Shown here: piece by piece, positions 13,801-35,440 of the stretch | Numbering within the stretch: the stretch's first letter is position 1 | Layout: each line of letters starts with the position of its first letter | Assembly (NCBI RefSeq): GCF_019649055.1 | Contig: NW_026570240.1 | Coordinates: forward strand, 744,001 to 808,000 | Reading direction: 5' to 3' | Origin: Paramacrobiotus metropolitanus | Taxonomy: Eukaryota; Tardigrada; Eutardigrada; Parachela; Macrobiotidae | Length of the DNA stretch: 64,000 nucleotides | Notes under the pieces: generated by a model | Database searches by the model: none | What the model saw: only the letters and a program-made list of their open reading frames with translations | Told to the model about the DNA's origin: nothing | Program-made: the position numbers and the translations under genes

Positions 13801-15181
13801 TGACTTACAATTACAACAAAGTGTACTAATAAGCAATTTAAATTTACGTGGAATCGTCACCGGTTATAATACCAAGTGGTACTTAAATGGATAATAAAAC
13901 AGATACGGAACACTACTGCGCTAGCGCACGACGAACCTCTTATAAAGCTTGGTACTTGTATTAATCAGTGTAGTCAAAAATTATGTACACTAAAATATCT
14001 GACAATTTAATTATTAACATCGATTTAAGCCCAACTATCAGTTCAGTTAATGGGGCTTTCACAGACGAGATAGCCTATGCGGTACATGACATTCGTATGC
14101 GTGGATTCACAAATCTTACAAGTTAGTACAAGTTCCTTGTGCGTACCAGTTAAAAAGATATTACGTACTGGTACAGTAATAGCGCCACTGTTTAAATATT
14201 AGTAGTCCAAAATTAGAGTAAACGAAGGAAAGCCTGTGCTGTAAGCCTTTCCGGTTGAAACCCTATTGAACATCTTGCGCCTCCAATCTGTGCCATGAAT
14301 CTTCATTGGAGAAAGGCTTATAGTAAAGTCTTAGGCCCCGATGGATCTCAAGTCTGGCGGATTATATTAACGGAGTGAGAATCGAATCGAACGGTCTTAG
14401 TTTTCTCAGTCGACGGAAGCCGGGTTCTGGTTTGGATATGACTGGCGTATATACGCATCCGAAAAAACAGCAATATAAGCAATGAAAATGCTCATCGGAT
14501 CCGTCGATGCGATTCGTTCTTGCGATATATGGGTTACCAGACAGCGTTGCAAAAGACCGCCGTATTAACTGCACTTGGACCCGTTTTGGATCTGCAGTGA
14601 TTACGCTTGAGGTTGCAGCAAATCAGACTTAATATCCCAGTATTTCATCTGAGTTTTCCGAAGATGTAGCCAAAAACTACTAATTCGTTCACCGTATTTT
14701 GCCATATGTTTTGGACTGTCAAGGACTCTCTCCAGTCTCGATTGTGTGTATTTGTGGCATCGCTGGGAGTAGTCACTTGATGGATAATGTGTTCATCCCG
14801 GTAGCAAATGTCCTCTTAAATTATGCTGCTATGCATCACCAGTTGCTTGATTTGTGTTAACGGACCTTACGTTTTTATTAACATTTCGAACGAAATCTCA
14901 CCGGCATTTTTCCCGTGATCCAGTGCACAAAGTTGGTGCTGTTGCTTAATTAAAGCACAAAAATCACATTCGCTTTTACACTACCGATATGCGCTTTACC
15001 GCAACTTATTGCGAGAGAATTTCGATGTTATTGTTGCACTGATTGACTGTTTTGGAATTTATCTGAAAAGGTTTTGAGAAATCTTTTTTCCCTCTGGTTT
15101 GCTTTAAAATTGCGTTAATTTGCAACATTCGTGCAATACACGGGACCAGGGACACATTACGGAAACCGGAAGTCTGGAGCA
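10848..15181. other. Long intergenic stretch, no gene seen
   Basis: This separates the divergent P450 (-) and receptor A (+) genes, so promoters of both should lie at its ends. Open frames at 10934-11633 and 14362-14574 are short, overlap on both strands and match nothing. A 10-bp perfect hairpin occurs at 11829-11851. Confidence 0.45.
11829..11851. repeat. Perfect 10-bp inverted repeat
   Basis: Arms 11829-11838 and 11842-11851 are exact reverse complements separated by AAA. No gene context. Confidence 0.7.
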
Positions 15182-18100
15182 ATGGTGTGGTGTTGTGGAC
15201 TTCGCTCCCCGAAATGGATCAGATATATAATTCCAATTTTTATACTTCTCTTGGATTCAGTTTGCTGCAGCCAGGATGCAAAGCGTTTATACGTAAGCTT
15301 GTACCCGCTGAAATTCTAGATGCAACTAATTAGTGTCAATTCAAAGCACTTCCATACAGCTGACGCCTGAATTAAGTCTTTTCCGTTTTCTCAGGATGAC
15401 CTGATGAAGGATTACAATAAACTGATTAGACCGGTTCGCAGTAATACGGGCACCCTAAATGTTTCCCTGGGACTGAAGCTGACGCAGCTCATTGACGTGG
15501 TAAGTTAGTTGTCTCAATTATTCTGGGATGGTGGCAGTTATCCCAGCTCAATGATTCTTAATCACATCCCGCCCTTCCTCGTGTGCAGTCCACTGGAATA
15601 CTGTGCCTCGTGGGATTCTCATACTCATCAAGCGAAAATATCAACATGCCTGCTTGATTAAAAACTCCCCCTAAGAAGAAAATGAGAAGCCTATAAAATG
15701 TTTGCTTAATTGACTTACGAACTCAGCAATGGCACGGATGCCGGTACCTACGCGACGCTCGTACCTAGCTATAGTCAGTATAAAGCGTAAATGCATAGTT
15801 CCACGGGAAACGGTTATCAAGAAATGCAGCTGTGATAAACAGGATAATAATGAAGTTTAAAAAGGTTGTTATACTAGGTAAGTTATGTGCTTGTTCAGGT
15901 TATTTTGTCTAAACAAAAAGAATTTTAGAAACAAGTTCACATTATACATTTTGATGAAACACGTTAGTAATTGTACCTGAAATTGGTCCTCATGAATCTA
16001 ATCAAAGAATGAATGTTTTCACCGCATACCACACTTATAATAAGTGAGTAGCGGTTGCGCAGTGGTACATTTTAATTCAGTTTCACAGAGTACTCACGCT
16101 TAGTGTTCGGTAATAGTGCAGACGTGACTAGAAAATTATAGAAATGGTCAATTTGTGTCTTTTTGGAAGCGTAAATTTAATTGCTTTGAGTATGCTTTTA
16201 GTAGCAGACTCTTTATAGAGATCTTTTCACGAATAAACATCCGCCATCACGCGCACGCTGCAGTACAAACATAAATGTCCCTTACAAGTTAGAAGGAGGA
16301 GCACAGTGTACTATAGCGCCATATAATGTCATTAGTAACTGGTCATTTCATGATTAATACTTCTATTGATTTTACCAGTCTTGACTCGTTGCGGTTTTGA
16401 TTACTGCTTTGCCAACGCTTTGCTTGATGGCACCAGGAAAAGCGAAGATGCCTTTTTTAAAATAATAGTTGTTTTTCTGATTTCTACATGATTTTATTAA
16501 CAGGAAAAGCAATAAGGGAAAATTTCAAAGAAATCGCAATATAAATATTTTCCCATTTTCAAATGATGTTGATGTCAACTAACACAATGTTTGCATATCC
16601 GCTGTACACTTGAGGAAGAAAATCGAAAGATACATCACTCAGTCATTTGGATTGAATTCGATTAAACCTTTTACCACGTCGAAAACTGTACTTCACTTAT
16701 TTGTATCAGTTGCAAAAGTTTGTAAGGTGCAAAAAGAAAAGTAAAACACGTATCCAAAAAAATTAAACTGTACATTAAACTGCACATCATACAAGAAGTA
16801 CAAATGGGCATTCCCGAACCGTGGCAGTCGACGTAAAAACGAAAACAGTGTAGATGCACACGGCTTTTACCAGAAGCTCCGCGGGTACGCAAATACAAAT
16901 TTGTATTTAAATAATAAATCGCCGAATCGTGCATGGCAAATAAACCTTTGAACTACATGCTGTGAAAAATTTTTTGCAGGATGAAGTGAATCAGGTAAAA
17001 GCGTTGGAATTCCTTAGCTGCAAGCACCGGAGAATTAATTACCAAAGCTATTTAGGTCATTACAACAAATGTTTGGGTGCGCCAGGTAAGGAAACGCGCG
17101 AAATGGCATTGCGCATATACAGATTAACCTTGCGACCACTCATAATAAATTTCTCATAATAAATAATAATAAATAATACTCATAATAAATTTTTTTCTTA
17201 ACCGAGAAAGTTCCAATACACAAGGCTTCGCCACTTTTGGTAATGCGCGGATTGTCAATAAAAAATGTTGAATTGTAACATTAGCACAGCCTATTGATTG
17301 ACTAATTACTGCCGTATTATCCACCAGGTGAGAATATGTTACCTACACGACAATAAGATATGTGCGTGTTCCCACAACGCAATCTAGCCAGCTGCCTAAT
17401 TGGATTGCTGTATTGTACATGTGCTGGGCTCCGCTATGACATGCTTAAAGTTAAAGGAATGGCCTTTAGGTATTAAGGAAATCTCCTTACGCTGTTATTT
17501 CCCAAAACAAGAGTGCCAGGATCGTTACTTATCTCGAGAATCATTTACTGAGCTTGTGATGTTTCCAGCTGGCTAGACTTTTAGTTCGCTCCTGTCACAA
17601 TTTTGCTTGGATTCGCTGCGTCACATTTCTCTACAGAACCATCTTGCCCTGCGCTTGAGTTAGTGCGGTCCGATCGATGGACGATCGGAAATAAGACTTC
17701 CGGTCACTAATCAGGCAGCAACATTGTTTGCACTTTATGACTTTGCACAAAAATAACCAAGGGCACGATTTCATACTGTTTATTCTACATCAAACAAAAC
17801 AAATTAACCACAGTAGATATTTTGAAGAGCTCTGCAATATGAATGATATAAGTACTATACCCTTGCTGTGAGTAAAATATACACATTTAGGGTTAATAAA
17901 ATTATTATTGTGCTCAGGAGTGGAATGATTACAAGCTGAGCTGGGATCCAAAAGAATATGGAAACATTACTGTTTTGTACATTCCCAGTGAATACATGTG
18001 GCTGCCCGATATCGTCTTGTATAACAAGTACGTGCGGTACAGCAGGCGTGACTTCCGTAATACGACCATGCAAAAAATATGTGCAGTAACTATGCGGTTA

Positions 18101-21100
18101 AAATTTTTCATATAAGAAATTCGCTGATTACGGTATCATAATAAAACTAAATCGCTTTGTATTTGTTAACAGCGCTGACGGTAACTACGAAGTCACACTG
18201 ATGACAAAAGTCGAAGTGCGCTCCAATGGTGATGTACGATGGGAGCCGCCCGCGATATACAAAAGGTTTGTTGGCGATCGTTCACATTTGGGAGAGACAA
18301 AGACTTCTGAGCGTAAGCCATTTAAAAATTATTAAAAACATGCGATTGACCTTTTCAGTTACTGCCTGATAAATGTGGAATTTTTTCCTTATGTAAGTGA
18401 TTTCAGTTTGCATTTGCACTATATTTTATTATTGGTAAATGGACGCTTTACGATATGCGTAATACGAGTATATTTCCGGGCTTTGCTCTATAAAGCCGCA
18501 AATTTTTTACTTTCATGTTTAACAAAATCTGTTATCAATTTTAGGATGAGCAAAAATGCAAAATGAAATTTGGAAGCTGGACATACGATGGGTGAGTTGG
18601 GCAACGAAACAAATAATATGGTGAAAGGTACAGTAATGAAATAATGTTGTATATGTAATATCTAAATGTTACGGCTGCTAAAATGTAGAATAAAATATTA
18701 TTGTTTATAGGTATTTCTTCTCAAATCACGTTGATAATTTTAAATTTAAAGAAGTATCTCGCACGCTCAGGTGGGCGGTGGATCTGAAGCCTATACGAGG
18801 ATATCACAATGATAGTGTCGACATCGCTATTGGAATGGATCTGTCGGAATACTATCCAAGCATCGAATGGGACATTATTGCGGTAGGTTTGCAGCTCGTC
18901 CTTTGTGTTGCACGGAAATAGATTTTTGTTTTTCTCATTTTTGATTTTCAAATATTCCTGAGTATTGTTTGAAAACATCGATAGTCACGTTCAGTCTTTA
19001 TAGGTGCCAGCAAGACGGCACACCATCTATTACCCGTGCTGCACGGAGCCGTATCCGGATATCACCTTCACCATCATTATCCGCCGGAAAACGCTATTTT
19101 TCACCGGTAATTTTCTAATATTTTCTACGTGGGTCGACTGTTATGTATTGTCTCTCTTCACAGTTAACTTGATCAGCCCGTGTGTTGCCATTTCATTCCT
19201 GACGATTTTAGTATTTTACTTACCGAGTGACAGTGGCGAAAAGGTAAGAACAACCATTGTATATCAGTTTACAATTAGATGTGTGCTGTCCACTAAAGAT
19301 CGCTGTGGCTCTATTGTTTGTATTAATATTAAATTACCTTTTGCAGGTTACCCTGTGTATTTCTATTTTGCTTTCCTTGACTGTGTTTTTCCTCCTTCTC
19401 GCAGAGGTTAGTTTTATTTAGCTGTATATGTCTTACCGACAAATTGACCATCAAATCCTCAGTCTTTCCATCTCGTTTACAGATTATTCCTCCTACATCA
19501 CTGGTGGTACGTAAACTAACGGCCATATTTAACAGGACGTTAACTACAAATTCTGCAACAAGATTTTTCATCAGGAAAGCAATCACTTAATTGTTTTTTT
19601 TCTTTTCAGATTCCTTTAATTGGAAAATACTTACTCTTCACAATGATATTGGTCACTTTAAGCATCGTTGTCACGATAACAGTTCTGAACGTTCATGTAA
19701 GTCGTTTTGCTTATATACATAAATACAGATGATTTGCCTAAAATCAAATTATCGCCAGTAATGATTTATAACGCGAATCATTCGTAAAATATTCTAACGT
19801 TCCTGGTTACTTAGGCGGAGTGCTTGTACAGTAAATCGCGTCTTCAAGACTAATGTAATTTGCGCCCTAGTTTCGCAACCCGGCAACACATCGCATGCCG
19901 CGCTGGGTACGAAAAGTGTTCATCCAGTTTTTGCCGCGTGTTTTGTTGATGCGGCGGCCGACACACCGGAAAGAAGAGGATCTGATGGGGCCCCAGCGAT
20001 TTAATTGTAATGACGACCACGCGCGGCGCCGGCATTCGCCGTATAACCACCAAGCGCAGCCGCATCTGAGCTATTCTGCCGTAATGACCCAGGAAGATCT
20101 GCTGTCTACTCCCGATCTTGATCATCTGCGCAGAAGACCTTATTCTTCGGATGTCCAAAGAGCGATTGATGGGATCCGCTTCATCGCCGATCACATCCGC
20201 GAAACGGATGCTTTTGGAAATGTAAGTTTCGGTCCCAACTGTGTAACAGCAATACTCGCTGCCCGAATACGACAAAAAATGACCAATACCATTACCGTAA
20301 AATGTGCGTACTCAGCAAGTAAGACAATGAAATGTGACCGACACGGTAACATATCCAGTGTGTTTGACTTTCTAAAGGTTACATGACCGTTATAATTCAC
20401 ATAATTTTGAATGGTTTTGTGAGAAACTGACCGGTCACCAAGAGACGATAGCCTACAAACCCCAATTTTTGAGCAAATAATTAAAATTTTATTGCTTGTC
20501 TGGCAAAAAAAGATGTTTTAGGTCGTGCAAAAAATATATATTAATGAAAGTCAGGTTTGGCTTTGTGATACTTACTGCAGCTGTAAATGATGTACGTTCA
20601 TTGTACGTAGATTACTTCAAAACGCTAAAATTAATGATAAAACTTTGATTTGCTACCCAGCGTTGCCAGAAGATAATTACTTCCAACCAAACCCACCCTA
20701 ATATTACTTACATTAATAAAAGCAATCGGATTTGTATTACACCCGATTCACTCGTTCAGTCTTATAAACAAGAATTTAGGAAACCCTAAATTTCTCTTTA
20801 GTCAACTTATAATAACTATTGTATTCTTTAATTTGTAGACGGTTCAAGATTGGAAGGTAAGTGGACCGAAAGCAAAAAAACAGCGGCCAATTAATTGCGG
20901 TGTCATATTTGCAGTACGTGGCGATGGTGCTGGATCGATTATTTTTATGGATATTTAGCATTGCTTGTGTTGTGGGAACTTTGGTCATTATACTGCGAGC
21001 GCCTAGTTTATATGATACAAAGGAGCCGATACCAAAAAAGAATTGCTATAATGTTATTCCAGGAAGCGACGAAAGCATGAAATGCTTATTTGAGGTAATA

Positions 21101-21415: not shown

Positions 21416-24400
21416 CTATATCTTTCGCTTGTCCAGAGCTTCTCTGTAATCAAATAACATGGGGGCATCCAAGAGTATTCCAAGTGTGCCAATAACGCAG
21501 GATAACGTAAAAATCCATAAAAACAATCGATCTGGAAATTCAAATGCCCGTAAGAAAGTCATTAAACTTGTTACCCAGCAGGACCAATCTGCATGCTGCT
21601 GTTGCTGTGTGCACATGGCAGATGTGTATCCTGAAATGTCTCTATTTATCTAAAGCGGTCAGAAGCGTAATTTTACAAATTATATTCATTGTTAAGCCGG
21701 AGAGTGATTTATGCTCGATATACAAATATTAAGAATCGGCAGCGGCAACACGCAAGTTGCACCAGTCTAGCTGATACAACAGCGCAATATTACACATCTT
21801 ATCGGGATTATTAACGTCTGCAGCCTTATTACACGCACGGTTTGCAAACAAGGTATTAGAAAGTAATGTTTTTTTGAGAGATAAGCTGTTTAGCTAACGG
21901 CGAGAGAGCGGAACAAAAGATTATACTTTGAAAAGGAAACTTTTCAAAGTTTTCAGCAGACTCGGAATTTCAAAAAAAATTCCGAGTCTGCTGGCGGTAA
22001 CCACCGCTGACATAAGTTCAAAATTTGAAGTATACACGTTAAAAATCACTACTTTGGAGCATTTGTTTATTCGGCAGCAGCCATCAAAGCAGTAAAAAAG
22101 TCATTCGCGGTCTCAATATACATGCATATTGATACTTAATTGAAAATTGTGAACCGGTGACATGCAACGCATGTAAGCATTTCATTTTAAAGCGGTAATA
22201 CAGTATTTACAGGTAGGTTATGTTTGCAATGGCGGTAAGCAACGTACTCTTAATATGTACCTGTATATGTGCGTACAGCCTATTAGTTGGCTGAATAGCT
22301 GCATTTCTGTAAGTAGGGTAGAACTTGTAATTACCTAGCACCATCGCCACAAACTGCCAGTCTTCCATCACTTCATTCAGTTCCTGAAGGATAAGAATCT
22401 GGTAGCGCGCAATTATGGCATTTAATATCAGTTATATTATCACCTCCGCTTTTCTTATGTGATCGGCAATATACACCACTCCTTCAACCGCCTTCTGTAT
22501 ATCCGTCGTATACCGCTTCCGTATGGTTGCCCGATCACTGTCTTGATTACACGGACTGAGCATAAGATCTGTTTCGCCCAACGCATTAGCTCTTGTTAAC
22601 CACGATCCACTATGATGTATATTGTCAAAAGTCGCTTCTCTGGCCAACGGCGCCCGACGGATCGATCCCGCAGCCGTCATATCTTCCGCAAAAGTCTCCC
22701 GAATTTCGACGCCATTACATGTACGGATACGTACGCGCGGCTGATTGGGATTGCTATGCCATTCATCAATCGGGCGCTGCATACAAAGCAAGCGCGGGAG
22801 AATTTCGATGAACAGATGCCGTACCCATGGAGCCATGCGGTGGGCAGAAGGGGAGCGAAACTAAAATAATTACAAGAGCTGAAGTCTACTTTTCCAGCAA
22901 AAATTATTTAAAAATTCAGAAGCATATTTACAGTATGCACAAGCCTGTATGACTGCACGTCATACCAGGTTTCGCACAGCACAGTATGCAGTAGTAGGTA
23001 TTCGGAATTTCGGAGACTACGAGACGTAGATACTATAGGTGCTCTGCACTTACATGAACATTAAGGACGGCAACCGTTACGACAATACTGAGCGTCACTA
23101 GGACCATTGTGAAAAGCAGATATTTGCCTATTAACGGAACCTAAAATTTTCGAACAGATATTGATTTTATTTTCACTTTTGAAGCGAATTGTCCTATAAT
23201 ACTTTGCTTACCACAAGGGAAGTCGGAGGGATTAGCTGCAACAAAAACGATTCCGATAATGCGACACATTTTGCAAAAGAATTATCAGACTTTGGATGAA
23301 AATGAGGACAAAAGCGTCAATTTACTTACCTCGGCCAAAAGCAGAAAAAACACTGTCAACGACAGCAGAATGGAAATGCACAGCGTGACCTAAGACGGAC
23401 AGACTGGAGTAATTAAGCTAGAATAGGGTACGAATAGACGATTAACGTAAACTGCTGAATCTAACTATGATTCTAAAACGCTAAAACAAAAGGTCACGCA
23501 GTTTGTTGCACGTACACAAGACTAATGGAAAAGCTTCCGACGAATCACGGGCCTGCAGAGTATAACTTACCTTTTCTCCGCTTGCGGAAGGTAAATAAAA
23601 GACCAAAACCGTCAAAAAGGAAATGGCCACACAAGGTATGATAAGATTAACTGCAAATACATATATATATCAGTAAGTGCTGTTGGTAATAAGTAAGTTT
23701 AAATCTTCCCATCACTGCAGCAGCCTACTGCAGCCATAAGATACTTCGGCTTAAAGCTTAAGGCATGGTTAGTTAAACAAAACTAACTGATTTATATATC
23801 TTAGAATGCTGCTATTTCTTACCCGTATAAAAGAGTGTTTTCCTCCTTATTGTCACATTAAACGTAATGTCTGGATATGGCTCGGCACAACAGGGATAGA
23901 ATTTTTCATTGCGTACAGCTGGCACTCCAATGATTTCCCACTCGACCTAAACCACTAATATATTGCCACCGCGCGCCGTAGTTCATTTCGACATAGTGCC
24001 TGTTATATGGTGTTCCAAAATAATGTTTCTGAACGCACGTCATTTAAAAGCCAAAACTAAGCTGGAATTTTCTGCTAATTTTAGATGACATCATTTTTAC
24101 ATAAAACTAAAAAGTTAGTTGTGGAATTCATTTAGTCATTGCTTGGTCATGCGGATTAAATTCGTTCATGGTAAGTAGGCAGATACTGTATTACAAAATA
24201 ACTGCTGTATCAAATAAAAAATGATAACTCTTTTGTTTGTTTCGGTTAGTGTTAAGTTACATAAGCTTCAATATTAATGTTATTACAAGCATACACTCTG
24301 TTTCACAGGCCGAAATTTCTGTTAAACCAAATATATAAAAATATAAGAAAACTTACGCTAGAATAATACTCCACTAGATCGATTCCACTGGTAATATTGT

Positions 24401-25915
24401 TATATCCTTCCACTTCATCAATATGACGTAGGTCAACCTGAACCATGCGAGCGATACACCGAAATCGTTATCAAAATTCGTTTGCATAAAATCTGTTTTC
24501 TTAAACTGATTTATAATTATATGGTTGCGGCAGTAATTTCAATACCTGAAATCCATCGTACGTCCATGAACCAAACTAAAACCAGTAACAATTATATAAA
24601 GCCATTTTGTGTACAGCAATATTCGGCGTGCATGTTTAGGTGGTCAGCAATGTTTTCTATAGTGAATACTTTGAGCGTAATCCCGGTTGCCTTGAGTAAT
24701 TTTAAAGAAAAAACTCACTTTCATTGCACAGTCTTGAATATCAAACGGAAAGTACTTCACATTGATCGAGCAGGAGCTTTTATAAATAGCTGGAGGCTCC
24801 CTAAATGAAATGTTGAATTTATACCATTATTAATTTAAGTAACCTGTGCACTAGTATGAATATTTTTAATAATTATTATGAATGGAAGTATATGAAATGT
24901 ATAAAGCCTTTCACGTTCATGAGCATGCTTGCGGGAGAGGGATTAAAATAGCTTACCAAATAACCAGCCCGTCTGGATGCAGCGTAGCCTTCGTCATGAG
25001 AGTGACTTCATAATTACCATCCGCACTGGTAAAATCAAACGAAACCTTGTAAAATTAGCATGGAAACAGCTTTGCTTGCAGCAGTTACTTGTTATATAGC
25101 ACTATATCAGGAAGCCAAATCATTGTTGATGGAACATATAACCGCTCCACTCCTCCATATTCCCTAGGATTCCATTTAAGCTTGGAATCGTTCCACTCTT
25201 GCCTCACCCATACCTTCGAAAAACAGTTTCGTAATTCGGTAAGGCATATTAATTCCATGATTTAAACTATTCCATGTGAACAAAGTATTTAAACATTTGC
25301 GTTTTAGAAAACACTGTTGCATTCCAACATCGAAATTTGATGTTGAAATACAGGAGCACATTAAAATTTGATGTTAAAATCAAATTTAATGTAGTCACAT
25401 AAAAAACAACAAATAGTCCAGTGTGGTAAATGCACAGTGACTGTAATTATACTCGTATATGCTATTGCTGGCCCTCAACCAATATTATGAAGCCTATTCG
25501 CAAAAATTACCTTACAAGCTGGGAAGGGCTAAGCGGAAACGCAAACTCTACAGACATTCGCGGCAATAAATTGCTACGTGCGTAAACCTTCAATATAATT
25601 ATACAGAATTTGTGCTACTCGGGATGTTGCAGGTTTTCGGATTTAAAAAATAATCACGAATAATAATGAGCGAAGTTTAATTTGTTGCGCTTACGTACAT
25701 ACATTAACCGTCATAATCTGGTTCTTCTCGTCGACGTCGATTAGTTGGGATAATCGTAGTCCCATTTTGACAGTTAACCTTTCGGTATTATTGCCAACGG
25801 GCCTTATTAGACGATTGTATGTTGATAGGAGATCGTCATAAAGACGTTTTGCGTCAGCATTTGCCGAGGCAGCTACAAAAAGCAACACTTTAATTAGCGA
25901 GATATTTATGGGCAA
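21416..25915 (-). CDS. Nicotinic acetylcholine receptor alpha subunit (B)
   Basis: About 518 aa. Exons in transcript order: 25915-25703, 25213-25089, 25025-24957, 24800-24719, 24575-24546, 24437-24357, 23946-23823, 23650-23571, 23389-23330, 23235-23212, 23140-23054, 22860-22444, 22383-22335, 21531-21416; phases agree throughout. [20 protein letters not shown] at the N-terminus is a signal peptide. Ligand-binding tryptophans sit in [20 protein letters not shown] and FGSWTYDG. The Cys-loop is [15 protein letters not shown] and FYPCC makes it an alpha subunit. TM2 is the canonical cation type ([18 protein letters not shown]), and [12 protein letters not shown] follows TM3 as in insect alpha1-4-like subunits. 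TM4 ends soon before the stop, the usual family length. Intron positions differ from A in the early ligand-binding domain but match over TM1-TM3, so A and B are old duplicates. A GTAG just inside exon 1 could be an alternative acceptor. Confidence 0.92.
21925..21993. repeat. Two tandem perfect hairpins in a receptor B intron
   Basis: An 11-bp perfect inverted repeat (21925-21935 / 21940-21950, loop GAAA) is followed at once by a 17-bp perfect one (21954-21970 / 21977-21993, 6-nt A-rich loop). Both lie in the intron between receptor B's TM3-TM4 loop exon and its last exon, so they would be transcribed in the pre-mRNA. Function unknown. Confidence 0.75.
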
Positions 25916-29651: not shown

Positions 29652-32600
29652 TTATCGAACGCATCGAAAATCTCCAAAGATTTCCTGCTCCTGCATAAGG
29701 ATGGACAATGAGCCAGCAGCCGTGACAATAAAAAATATCCACAACAAGCCTGCAGTACCAAAAATTGCAATGTCATTTCCTATTTAAATTTTTGCATGAA
29801 TTTCTTTATTTCCGAGGTATATATGCGTCGTAAACAGAGACAGCTTATACAAGTATCGGTCCGCAATTTTCATTCTTTACAGTAGCTCACCCCGGTCAAT
29901 TACCGTAGCCATCCATTTCCAGTCTTCTTCAATCTGAAAACGAACTTTCTTATTTTATTTCTCATGCTACGATATTTACCATAATGCATTCTTGTATAGA
30001 TGTATTGTACCTGTCGTATGTGATCCTTCCTCCTATACGAATCCGCAATAACGTCTAGTGCATCAAAGTATCTGCGATTATGTCTGAGAGCGTCAGTCGG
30101 ATCGTCTATCAAATCCGATGTGATCGATTCGGTCCTAACCAACGGTATTTTGGATCGTTTTCTGTTTTGAGCAGTTAATTCTTGCAGTTCTATCAAATTT
30201 TCTTTTTGAAAGCATTCGGGTGGTTCCATCGTGTGGCTTGTGCGGGGTGTTGCAGTAGCACTGTTAACATTCGGTGAAGCGGCTTTCCCACCGGGAATGG
30301 AGAGGTTACGAACCGAAAACTGATGAGATCGCACGTATCTAGTCGAAAAGCAGTATGTTGTTTAAACTTGAATTATTGACGCAAAAGTTTTGACCAGCCT
30401 ACTGTACAATGTAACAGCTGATATTTCGAATTTTGAGTTTCTTTCAGTGCTAGTTATACATACTCGTATGTATACCGGTGACATACAGTTACACATATAT
30501 GTATGGAACAAAGCAATCAAACCGGCTGTTTTTCATGAGAATCATGTTTACAAAACATCAACGTACCGACGAGGCTTCCTCATCAGGAATATTACGGGCA
30601 AAAACTGAAAAAATAAATACTGAACCCATTTGGGTGGTGCCGGATGGATTTTTGGGCTTCGGTAATGTAGATGGATAGTCCAAACAGTGACCACAACAGA
30701 GACGAAATTCATCACAAAAGCGAACAATAGATATCTGCAAAGGTAGCGTACATGATCTATGTATTGTGACTGTTTTTTAATTAACAGTTAATGTTTATTT
30801 CTTACTTAGCCATTAAAGGCAAGTCTTTAGAGGGAGGCAAAATTTTGGAAACCAGCAGAAGGTAAAATACCAAGGTCACTGAAAAGAAATTATTCCACTT
30901 GGCACAATGTTAATGTATATCACTCTGTACAGCAGACTCATGTCCCTACTTATTTTCTTGGTTAATTAAGCTCTAAGGTTTTGTGTAATTTACTTTTGAT
31001 GATCTTATGCGACTAATTATGCAGTTTACTCACCAGAAATCGATATGCTTAAGGCCACCTTTTCTCTGAAACCATGATTGGCAATTAATACAGGCATAGA
31101 CACAAGAACAGACACAATCAAACGATTCGAAAGCTTACCCGCTAGCGGAAGGCAAATAAAATACAAGGACCTGTATAAAAATTATATAAAAAATCTGTAT
31201 CAGAAAAAATGCCGTCTAAACGCAATTACTCTAAACTTACTGTTAGAAAGGTCACCAAGCAAGTAGGAATGAGCAAATTGACTGTATAAAATAGTGGCCT
31301 TCTTTGTATCACAAAATAATACACCATTTCAATGCGAGGCTGTTTATCTGGAGTGTAGTAAAACATTGGTTGGCCTTTTGCTTCCAGAATGCACCACGTT
31401 CCTAAAATTAATCATGTTTTACAGTTCACACTTCTACGTAAAATGTTTCGATAACATAAGAAAAATTATAAATCGGCATGTTTTGTATACCGGAATCCGT
31501 GAAGTCAGTTAGATCAACAAAATTTGTTTCGCCGAAAGATTCAAGAAGAACTTCTTGAGAATTCCATGTCCAAGAACGAAAACGCATTTTGCATGTTTGA
31601 ATCTGCAGAGAACGCGAGACAACTTTACAGCATTCGAAAGCCTGCTAAATCTTACTGACCGTAAATATATATTGATTTAGAAATATTTTCTTATTCAAAT
31701 ATATAGAGTACTGGAGCAGCAAAAGTTCGCCTAATTCCACATACGGTAGCCTCTTTCCTATAAGAACAGGAAACTGACCGACGTCAGTTTGCACGGATCG
31801 GCAAAACGTGCACGGATCGGCGACGGAGAGAACATTGAATTTGAGTCAGCATATGACCGTACATTACAATTTGGATAATTAGTTTTTGAAAAAAGATAAG
31901 TTCATAAAATTAAATTTAAATAACATTTATACAATTGATAAATCACTTTTTTTTACTCGAAGGAAATAATAAAATGAGTTTACCGAAATCATGAAATGTA
32001 CGTCGACATCATTGTTAATTACGGCACTGCGCATCGTTGCAACATCAGATCTACTTCTATACATGTAAAATTCGATAACAACATAATATATAGTCGCTAT
32101 TGATGCTACTACACGCATATTCACTTCGTACGTCAAAAGGGAAATAGACGACATTGATCTCGCAAGTTGATTTATAAATTGATGGAGGTAGCCAACTGAT
32201 GTCTCCTTTAGAGTAAATGACAACTGCAAAAAAATACAGATTTCAACACAAACTTGAATAAAACAGTTCTGTCTTTCTATAGTAAAACCACATATTTATA
32301 ATTGTACACTTAAATGTGAACTAGACCGGGCAATTCTAGTTTCCAGACTATTCACCACGGCATCTTATCACTACAGTTCGATTGTTGAAGGAGAAAAGCT
32401 TAATGGGTTTTTGACAACTTTCTTGCACTCATTCCAGAATCATATTTTCGATGATACTTCAAGATATGAATGCGCAAAGGATGACAAATTACTTGAAGAC
32501 GAATATCTAGTAATTTAGTTACGGCCAAGATTGATGAGTGCAACTTGGTTGTGCTAGAAAATTAGCAGATCCAGATGGGCGGTTCAATACTTGGTTCGCT

Positions 32601-35440
32601 AACGGCTTTACCATTTTGCACGCTCACGTAAAATGATATAAGTAACAATTAGCAACTGCGCGATAAAACTGATTACATGCATTTGCCTTCACCTCTACTG
32701 GTAGAGCAAAAGATTGACTTACCATTGGATTTATAACTAACTCCGTACTTTCCGTCAGCACTGCAAACGATCATAATTGTCCGCTTAAAATCACACGCAG
32801 GAAGAAATCCCAACTTACTTGTTCAAAAGAACGACGTCCGGCGTCCACACTTTATCGGCAGGCATCCTGACGGCCTGGATATTTCCGTACTTTTCAGGTG
32901 TCCAAGCCAACTGTGGATCGTTCCAACCCTTGAAAGTATTATGCCAGTTATTAAAATTGTAAATAAAAATTGTCGAAATTTACGAAAGCACTTACCAACC
33001 TATACCATAAATTAGTCTTGAAAACCTGGTCTCTCTCGTTCTAAAATTACAAAATGATCAATGATCAGGACTAGCAGCTTATACTGGAAAAATTCCCTTC
33101 CCACAAATTTGACTCACCACGCCTAGGATTAAGACTAGAACAATCCCAAAATGAATTTTAACTGGATCGCTTAAATTGGTAACAGGACGAATCAGTGTGT
33201 TGTAGCCGTATGATAGATCTCGTATGAGCGCGCCTTGATTTTCCGCTGATCCTGTAACATCAGTTCATGGCATTAGTAAGGAAATGTAATTGTTTTTTCG
33301 GACACCATGACGGAGCACACGCATGCGTTTGTATATCAGGTACAACTTGGGCTGTAGCCTGAGTCTGATCGCTGCGTAACTTGCTGCTCATAATCAATAT
33401 GTTACTTCCGAGATCGATGGATTGGATCCCGGATCCCTAATCTAAGATTAAGGTTCTTTATTCGGCTACTTAAAATAACAGTCTCCACTGCGAGCTATGG
33501 CAAGTAATCAAGCAATGTACTGGTTCGGCATTTACTCCAGAATTTCATATTGGAGATTCTTCGATTGCAATGACAGAATGCAATAACATAACCACAGTTT
33601 ACAGATTTTGAATAATAATTTAAACAAATCCTCGATCTGAGCGTGACAAATTCAGTAATCCGCATTTTTTGCTAGGGCACGAACAAATGACTACGTTAAA
33701 TGTTAGTAACCTTTATAAGTATGGGGAAAAAGGTATGTAGCAGTGTGCGTACCACATGCGCTGTTTATAGTTAGCGAAAACAGAAATTTTTAACACAATA
33801 TATAATCACAATATGGGTTTAGATTAATTATTATCAGATATTATTACTACTGTGCAACAAACGCATTAAAGCGGAAAGGTTTTATTTGACAACTCTGAAA
33901 ATGAAAAGCAGACCTACCAAAGTGTTACTGTAGTCGCGAGTCAAAACGCTTAATTTTCATACATAATATGCTATGCAGATACGACTCACTGTACGAAAAT
34001 ACGGCATTTTCACGCGTAATGCAGTAATTAGTATTTAGTAGCGTAATGCAATAGATTCTTAAAAACAATGTTTACGTATTTCTGCATTGGCTTTTTTCTT
34101 TTGTGCTACGCATGCGCTTCCCTGTGCCCGAGTACGGATGCCGTATATGATAATATTATATTGGCAAATAAATATCGATGTCGTATTATACGAATCCGCT
34201 GCACATGTGAATTTAATAAAGTATAGTAGCGCAAACAAGCGAGCCACTTGCCGCTGAATAAACATTCGTCAAGAGAAGCGATATCCAGGAGCTTTCTTTC
34301 CGGACCGCTTCCCATTCAATCAACGCTTTTCTGGAATTTTTTCTAGAACCCGGTTATATGAGTTTTCCATTCATTTTGAACCACTTATGAGGACAGCCTT
34401 ATTTGCGGAGACGGCTAGTTCTGCCATACACTGCTCTTAATATACGTAAATGTCTGCTTTATATACATTCATATTCCAGGCCAGTCCAATTCAGTGTAAG
34501 CTTACCTTTCCGTCTGCGGGGAATAGCAGTGCAAGCATTCAGATCACTTACATTTGTCAATTTTTTAATCGAACTTTTTTTGAATGGCAAACCTTCTCGG
34601 CTTTCTTCAACGTCTTTTTTCTTTCTTCAACAAACAGCTCTTTTCCGAAAGTTGTACTATTAATTAGCCTATCGAAACCCATATACCAGCTAGGGCGATT
34701 TCCTATGGATATCAGTTCATTCAGTTGAGCATTTCTTATTCCGTTTCGTTTAGCAAACCCGTTTACTATAGAAGTTTTTTATTAGTTCGCTAGGTATTTG
34801 AAAAGACTGTTAGTGTATACTTTATGATTCAATCAGAAATAATCATGGCATTTGACGAGACAATTAACCATCTCAACCACTCAGCTATTTTGTTATACGA
34901 GTACTGTAAATTCTCGAATTTGCCGCATAGTAAAAGCCGGGCTGTATTACTGAATGGCTGCATGGATGGCGCATCTAGGCATACAGCATCATCAACTACT
35001 TGGAATACGTCTAAAATGACCACTCGCAAAGATCCAGAAAAGTGTTTTCTAGAGCACGACAGACTCAATCCGATCACTTATACCATCCAATTCCCAAGAG
35101 CTTTATCGCTGCTCTCGTCCTCAGACATGCTCATTGTTAATTCCGCTGATTTTTTACCAAACATCACAATTTGCAGCCAGAAATGCAGTGATCTACCTGC
35201 TGCTATCAAGTTGTAGTATTGTGCGCTGCCAATCGATCTTGCATTTACGAAGGTTTACCAAATAAACAACTCACCGAAGTATGAGTATGCTGATACTTGA
35301 TCACACACCGATAACCGTATAATCCAGATTAGTACTCCACACAAAAAACTATTACATCGGCGATATATGGCAATTGTTTCTCCAGTACTCGTACCGCTAT
35401 ACGCTAACAACAAAATTAATTGCAAAAGCCGCATTATCAT
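29652..35440 (-). CDS. Nicotinic receptor non-alpha subunit, unusual TM2 (C)
   Basis: About 503 aa. Exons in transcript order: 35440-35395, 33251-33118, 33040-32996, 32928-32819, 32760-32723, 32223-32132, 31602-31491, 31401-31241, 31170-31139, 31065-31034, 30878-30806, 30734-30567, 30338-30011, 29933-29891, 29749-29652; phases agree. Exon 1 encodes only a signal peptide ([16 protein letters not shown]) and is followed by a 2.1-kb intron. The ligand-binding domain has [25 protein letters not shown] and an intact Cys-loop ([15 protein letters not shown]), but no vicinal cysteines, so it is a non-alpha subunit. TM2 runs [19 protein letters not shown], then LVSKILPPS. Compared with A and B this is T2'A, L9'V and, most strikingly, E20'K in the outer ring, while the -1' Glu of GEK is kept. 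[13 protein letters not shown] opens the cytoplasmic loop. The agonist cannot be inferred. Confidence 0.88.

Follow-up and report, generated by a model that had tools for sequence, protein, structure and literature searches.

A tardigrade nicotinic receptor gene that probably encodes a beta-type subunit with largely ordinary pore residues

The question raised by this locus of Paramacrobiotus metropolitanus is whether a nicotinic-type gene, here called C, with Val at the 9' gating position and Lys at position 20' of its second transmembrane segment (TM2), specifies an unusual pore or an ordinary subunit. The tardigrade origin is borne out by SAHS genes, which are known only from tardigrades: a SAHS1 query, confirmed as SAHS1 by a PDB search, matched a cluster of SAHS exons on C3 at up to 64% identity. 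A COX1 search found nothing. The gene lies in a 64,000-nucleotide window (the whole stretch of DNA analyzed, C20:744001-808000 of an assembly totaling 169.8 Mb), where three nicotinic receptor genes, two of them alpha and the third non-alpha, are found within ~21 kb (window positions 14311-35440). The two alpha-type neighbors of C are:

14311..20983 (approximate extent), plus strand: receptor A, alpha-type subunit, YPCC in loop C, Glu at 20'
21476..25849 (approximate extent), minus strand: receptor B, alpha-type subunit, YPCC in loop C, Glu at 20'

A similar grouping is seen in the insect alpha1/alpha2/beta2(alpha8) cluster (PMC2064938), the likeness being one of arrangement and not a demonstration that C is the same gene.

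Gene C was rebuilt by hand, exon by exon. It occupies the minus strand (35440..29652) and consists of 15 exons with 1512 coding bases, encoding 503 amino acids; every splice site is GT-AG, and the frame is open, with no stops and no frameshifts. A spliced-alignment script was run on the window with two queries from outside C, the paralogue C54_86k and human beta2. The exons through TM2 were identical with both queries (scores of 900 and 751, respectively); control stretches of the window scored 49 or less with the C54_86k query. The exons are listed below, with exons 2 to 15 placed by both the rebuild and spliced alignment.

35395..35440, minus strand: exon 1, signal peptide with the start Met, joined in frame to exon 2
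33118..33251, minus strand: exon 2, N-terminal helix region, ligand-binding domain
32996..33040, minus strand: exon 3, loop D (TNLWYRL), complementary-face Trp present
32819..32928, minus strand: exon 4, to loop A, Leu in place of Tyr (VVLLNN)
32723..32760, minus strand: exon 5, ligand-binding domain
32132..32223, minus strand: exon 6, first half of the Cys-loop
31491..31602, minus strand: exon 7, second half of the Cys-loop (13 residues between Cys), loop B
31241..31401, minus strand: exon 8, loop C without the vicinal Cys pair, TM1
31139..31170, minus strand: exon 9, end of TM1, M1-M2 loop
31034..31065, minus strand: exon 10, TM2 residues -1' Glu through 8' Ser, then base 1 of the 9' Val codon
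30806..30878, minus strand: exon 11, 9' Val to 20' Lys, shortened M2-M3 loop
30567..30734, minus strand: exon 12, TM3
30011..30338, minus strand: exon 13, intracellular M3-M4 loop, MA helix
29891..29933, minus strand: exon 14, MA helix to TM4
29652..29749, minus strand: exon 15, TM4, stop codon

The weakest part of the model is exon 1, which was placed by its reading frame and in-frame splice only and was not recovered by the outside queries. The deduced protein matched the Pfam ligand-binding domain (PF02931, 210.8 bits) and transmembrane domain (PF02932, 145.7 bits), both above the cut-offs, and retains all four TM segments, the GEK motif, and a Cys-loop in which 13 residues separate the two cysteines. 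The codon of the 9' Val is interrupted by an intron (G, then TG) whose donor and acceptor are canonical. We conclude that C is a genuine gene and that its product is a non-alpha subunit of nicotinic acetylcholine receptors.

At the binding site, loop C lacks the vicinal Cys pair and loop A has Leu for Tyr, so C cannot form the principal face of the acetylcholine site. Since the Trp of loop D is kept and there is no principal face, its partners should be alpha subunits, for example the two neighbors A and B, to which C would contribute the complementary face. The non-alpha class that the initial annotation had assigned to C agrees with loop C and with the position of C in a non-alpha clade of the tree described below.

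TM2 of C has Glu at -1', Ser at 8', Val at 9', Phe at 13', and Lys at 20' (V-T-L-V-F-Y-L-L-L-V-S-K from 9' to 20'). The residues at -1', 9', and 20' had been noted before, along with a gap-free alignment of this segment to TM2 of A and B; the rebuilt and independently aligned exons bear out the residues, and the alignment holds up to 20'. Right after TM2, the M2-M3 loop is one residue shorter in C than in A and B (PPSKDLPL versus PPTSLVVPL). The initial annotation had also presented E20'K as an unusual change in C, and here it fails: the comparison used A and B only, and because these are alpha subunits, "E20'K" describes a contrast between alpha and beta and not a substitution in C, Lys being usual in beta-type subunits. 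The further suggestion of an altered cation/anion selectivity is unsupported; a switch is not expected, because the -1' Glu and the GEK motif are intact. The intact motif also led us to reject anion selectivity for C.

Among the PDB matches listed, the best solved match of C was human neuronal beta2 (46% identity over 319 aa). Of the solved non-alpha matches, human beta2 and beta4 are the best; both read LLLISKIVPP, i.e., have Lys at 20', and resemble C in being non-alpha, in lacking the vicinal Cys pair, and in having the GEK motif and the loop D Trp. C differs from both in Val at 9', Ala at 2', and an M2-M3 loop that is one residue shorter. The vertebrate accessory subunit beta3 presumably has Val at 9', as C does; a paper on the structure of beta3 gave no information on this position. 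Insect beta1 (Drosophila ARD type) presumably has Lys at 20' and a TM3 similar to that of C, and, unlike C, a full-length M2-M3 loop; a text search of the literature for the insect beta1 TM2 motif found no paper, and the collections searched and the PDB matches listed contained no arthropod nicotinic sequence.

In Table 1 of PMC5447003, Lys at 20' is given for beta2, beta4, gamma, and delta, Val at 9' for alpha5, and Phe at 13', which C shares, for human beta4; according to the text of that paper, the 20' residue is always negative in alphas and positive in most non-alphas. Thus, 9'V, 13'F, and 20'K of C each have an ordinary precedent in the vertebrate subunits of that table. Vertebrate alpha5 is like C in its 9' Val (Table 1 of PMC5447003) and in the accessory position, which is proposed for C; unlike C, which has Ser and Lys at 19' and 20', it has Glu at both positions, and it raises calcium permeability. 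In the charge model of the same paper, a more positive 20' ring lowers the fractional calcium current of vertebrate receptors. When the model was recomputed with the published constants, each subunit changed from Glu to Lys cut the odds of calcium current ~3.1-fold, a figure fitted to vertebrate receptors, of which only the direction is applied to C. A lower calcium passage through heteromers containing C, as proposed in the initial annotation, agrees in direction with this model (as for beta2), but is not unusual.

Apart from C, 21 further nicotinic-type genes were modeled in the same genome (22 with C), clear GABA- and glutamate-type channels being left out, and a tree was built from the modeled subunits and four human ones. 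C fell in a clade of ten tardigrade non-alpha genes (support 100/100), none of which has the loop C Cys pair and all of which have the short M2-M3 loop. Lys is found at 20' in four of the ten (C, C54_86k, C4_1544k, and C4_1553k), the remainder having Asn, Asp, or Glu; Glu occupies this position in all 12 modeled subunits of two alpha-type clades (10 with the loop C Cys pair and 2 without). C54_86k and C4_1544k branch early in the clade of C, and because they, as well as the outside reference, human beta2/beta4, have Lys at 20', this residue is likely ancestral in the clade and has likely been retained by C. Lys at 20' is therefore common in the related group, taken here as paralogues and vertebrate relatives, a result that had been named in advance as speaking against an unusual pore.

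The closest paralogue, C54_86k (C54:84317-87952, locus L021), is 50% identical to C and has the same Lys at 20' and the same short M2-M3 loop; unlike C, it has Leu at 9', Val at 13', and no intron within TM2. The TM2 segments of the two differ at 8', 9', 12', 13', and 14'. In the assembly, the extracellular part of this paralogue contains two lesions (C54:85287-86466), a missing stretch that precedes the Cys-loop and a frameshift that follows it; these may reflect either sequencing error or real damage to the gene.

The branch of C is longer than that of C54_86k (0.81 versus 0.37), and given this, C is, as judged from its sequence, somewhat derived. Its length is also what speaks for a different reading, in which C is decaying or not transcribed and its TM2 has drifted neutrally. 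We regard this reading as very improbable, since C has 15 exons that read through in an open frame, with canonical splice sites, and has kept its four TM segments, Cys-loop, and GEK motif. Pseudogene status was rejected on gene integrity.

Val at 9' was found in C alone among the 22 subunits modeled in the genome. This, together with the five TM2 differences from C54_86k, would favor a specialized C, in which 8'S, 9'V, 13'F, and 20'K and the short M2-M3 loop make heteromers markedly different in gating or selectivity. That is unlikely, in our estimate: 9'V, 13'F, and 20'K are each present in ordinary vertebrate subunits, the short loop is common to the whole clade, and with the -1' Glu and the GEK motif intact, a selectivity switch is not expected. 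We also give little credence to C as a private partner of A and B, in which the same four residues and short loop would result in low calcium flux and a gating unlike that of any described nicotinic heteromer.

We conclude that C is very probably a normal, working gene whose product is a beta-type (non-alpha) subunit and takes part in a heteromeric, cation-selective nicotinic receptor of the tardigrade. Its 20' Lys, the residue of beta-type subunits, would have come down to it with its clade. In a pentamer, this Lys may offset the Glu of alpha subunits in the outer ring and decrease calcium permeability, as in beta2/beta4, by the mechanism known from vertebrates. The change to Val at 9' is small, stays hydrophobic, and has alpha5 as a precedent; it would do no more than tune gating mildly. 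Most likely, C acts as a beta-type accessory subunit that reduces calcium permeability as beta2 does, which is biology already known. Its pore residues appear largely ordinary, and C can be considered a new nicotinic subunit of a familiar type. When its pore is compared with those of alpha subunits only, a normal beta subunit seems mutated.

Other subunits modeled in this genome have Phe instead of Leu at the 9' gating position. Seven such non-alpha subunits form one clade (100/99):

C4:1546102-1548131: 9'F subunit
C4:1551754-1556204: 9'F subunit
C4:1557927-1561156: 9'F subunit
C4:2373602-2376438: 9'F subunit
C4:3516050-3518897: 9'F subunit
C49:393696-396578: 9'F subunit
C49:399600-403819: 9'F subunit

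In loop D, all seven have NGY instead of NVW. Two of these paralogues (L022, C4:1546746-1547373, minus strand; L023, C4:1552489-1553166, minus strand) are missing two residues immediately ahead of TM2, a loss that takes the -1' Glu out of the GEK motif. Because this Glu is absent, the cation selectivity of the two may differ; loss of the GEK motif has a published precedent in Tribolium alpha9 (PMC2064938). Judging by their residues, the pores of the seven 9'F subunits are much odder than that of C.

Two genes of the alpha clade (L029, C18:900130-906338; L030, C51:710157-715203) have Glu at 20', yet are without the loop C Cys pair and the loop D Trp. About eight copies of the ligand-binding domain are located at C120:45098-113741 (L048, L049), with the loop C Cys pair present in three of the four read; no transmembrane-domain match and no convincing TM segment were found in this interval, and the copies are possibly soluble acetylcholine-binding-protein-like genes.

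These data provide a first look at the nicotinic family of a tardigrade, in which a large non-alpha expansion is seen. The useful leads would be the 9'F relatives of C, two of them without the -1' Glu, rather than C itself.
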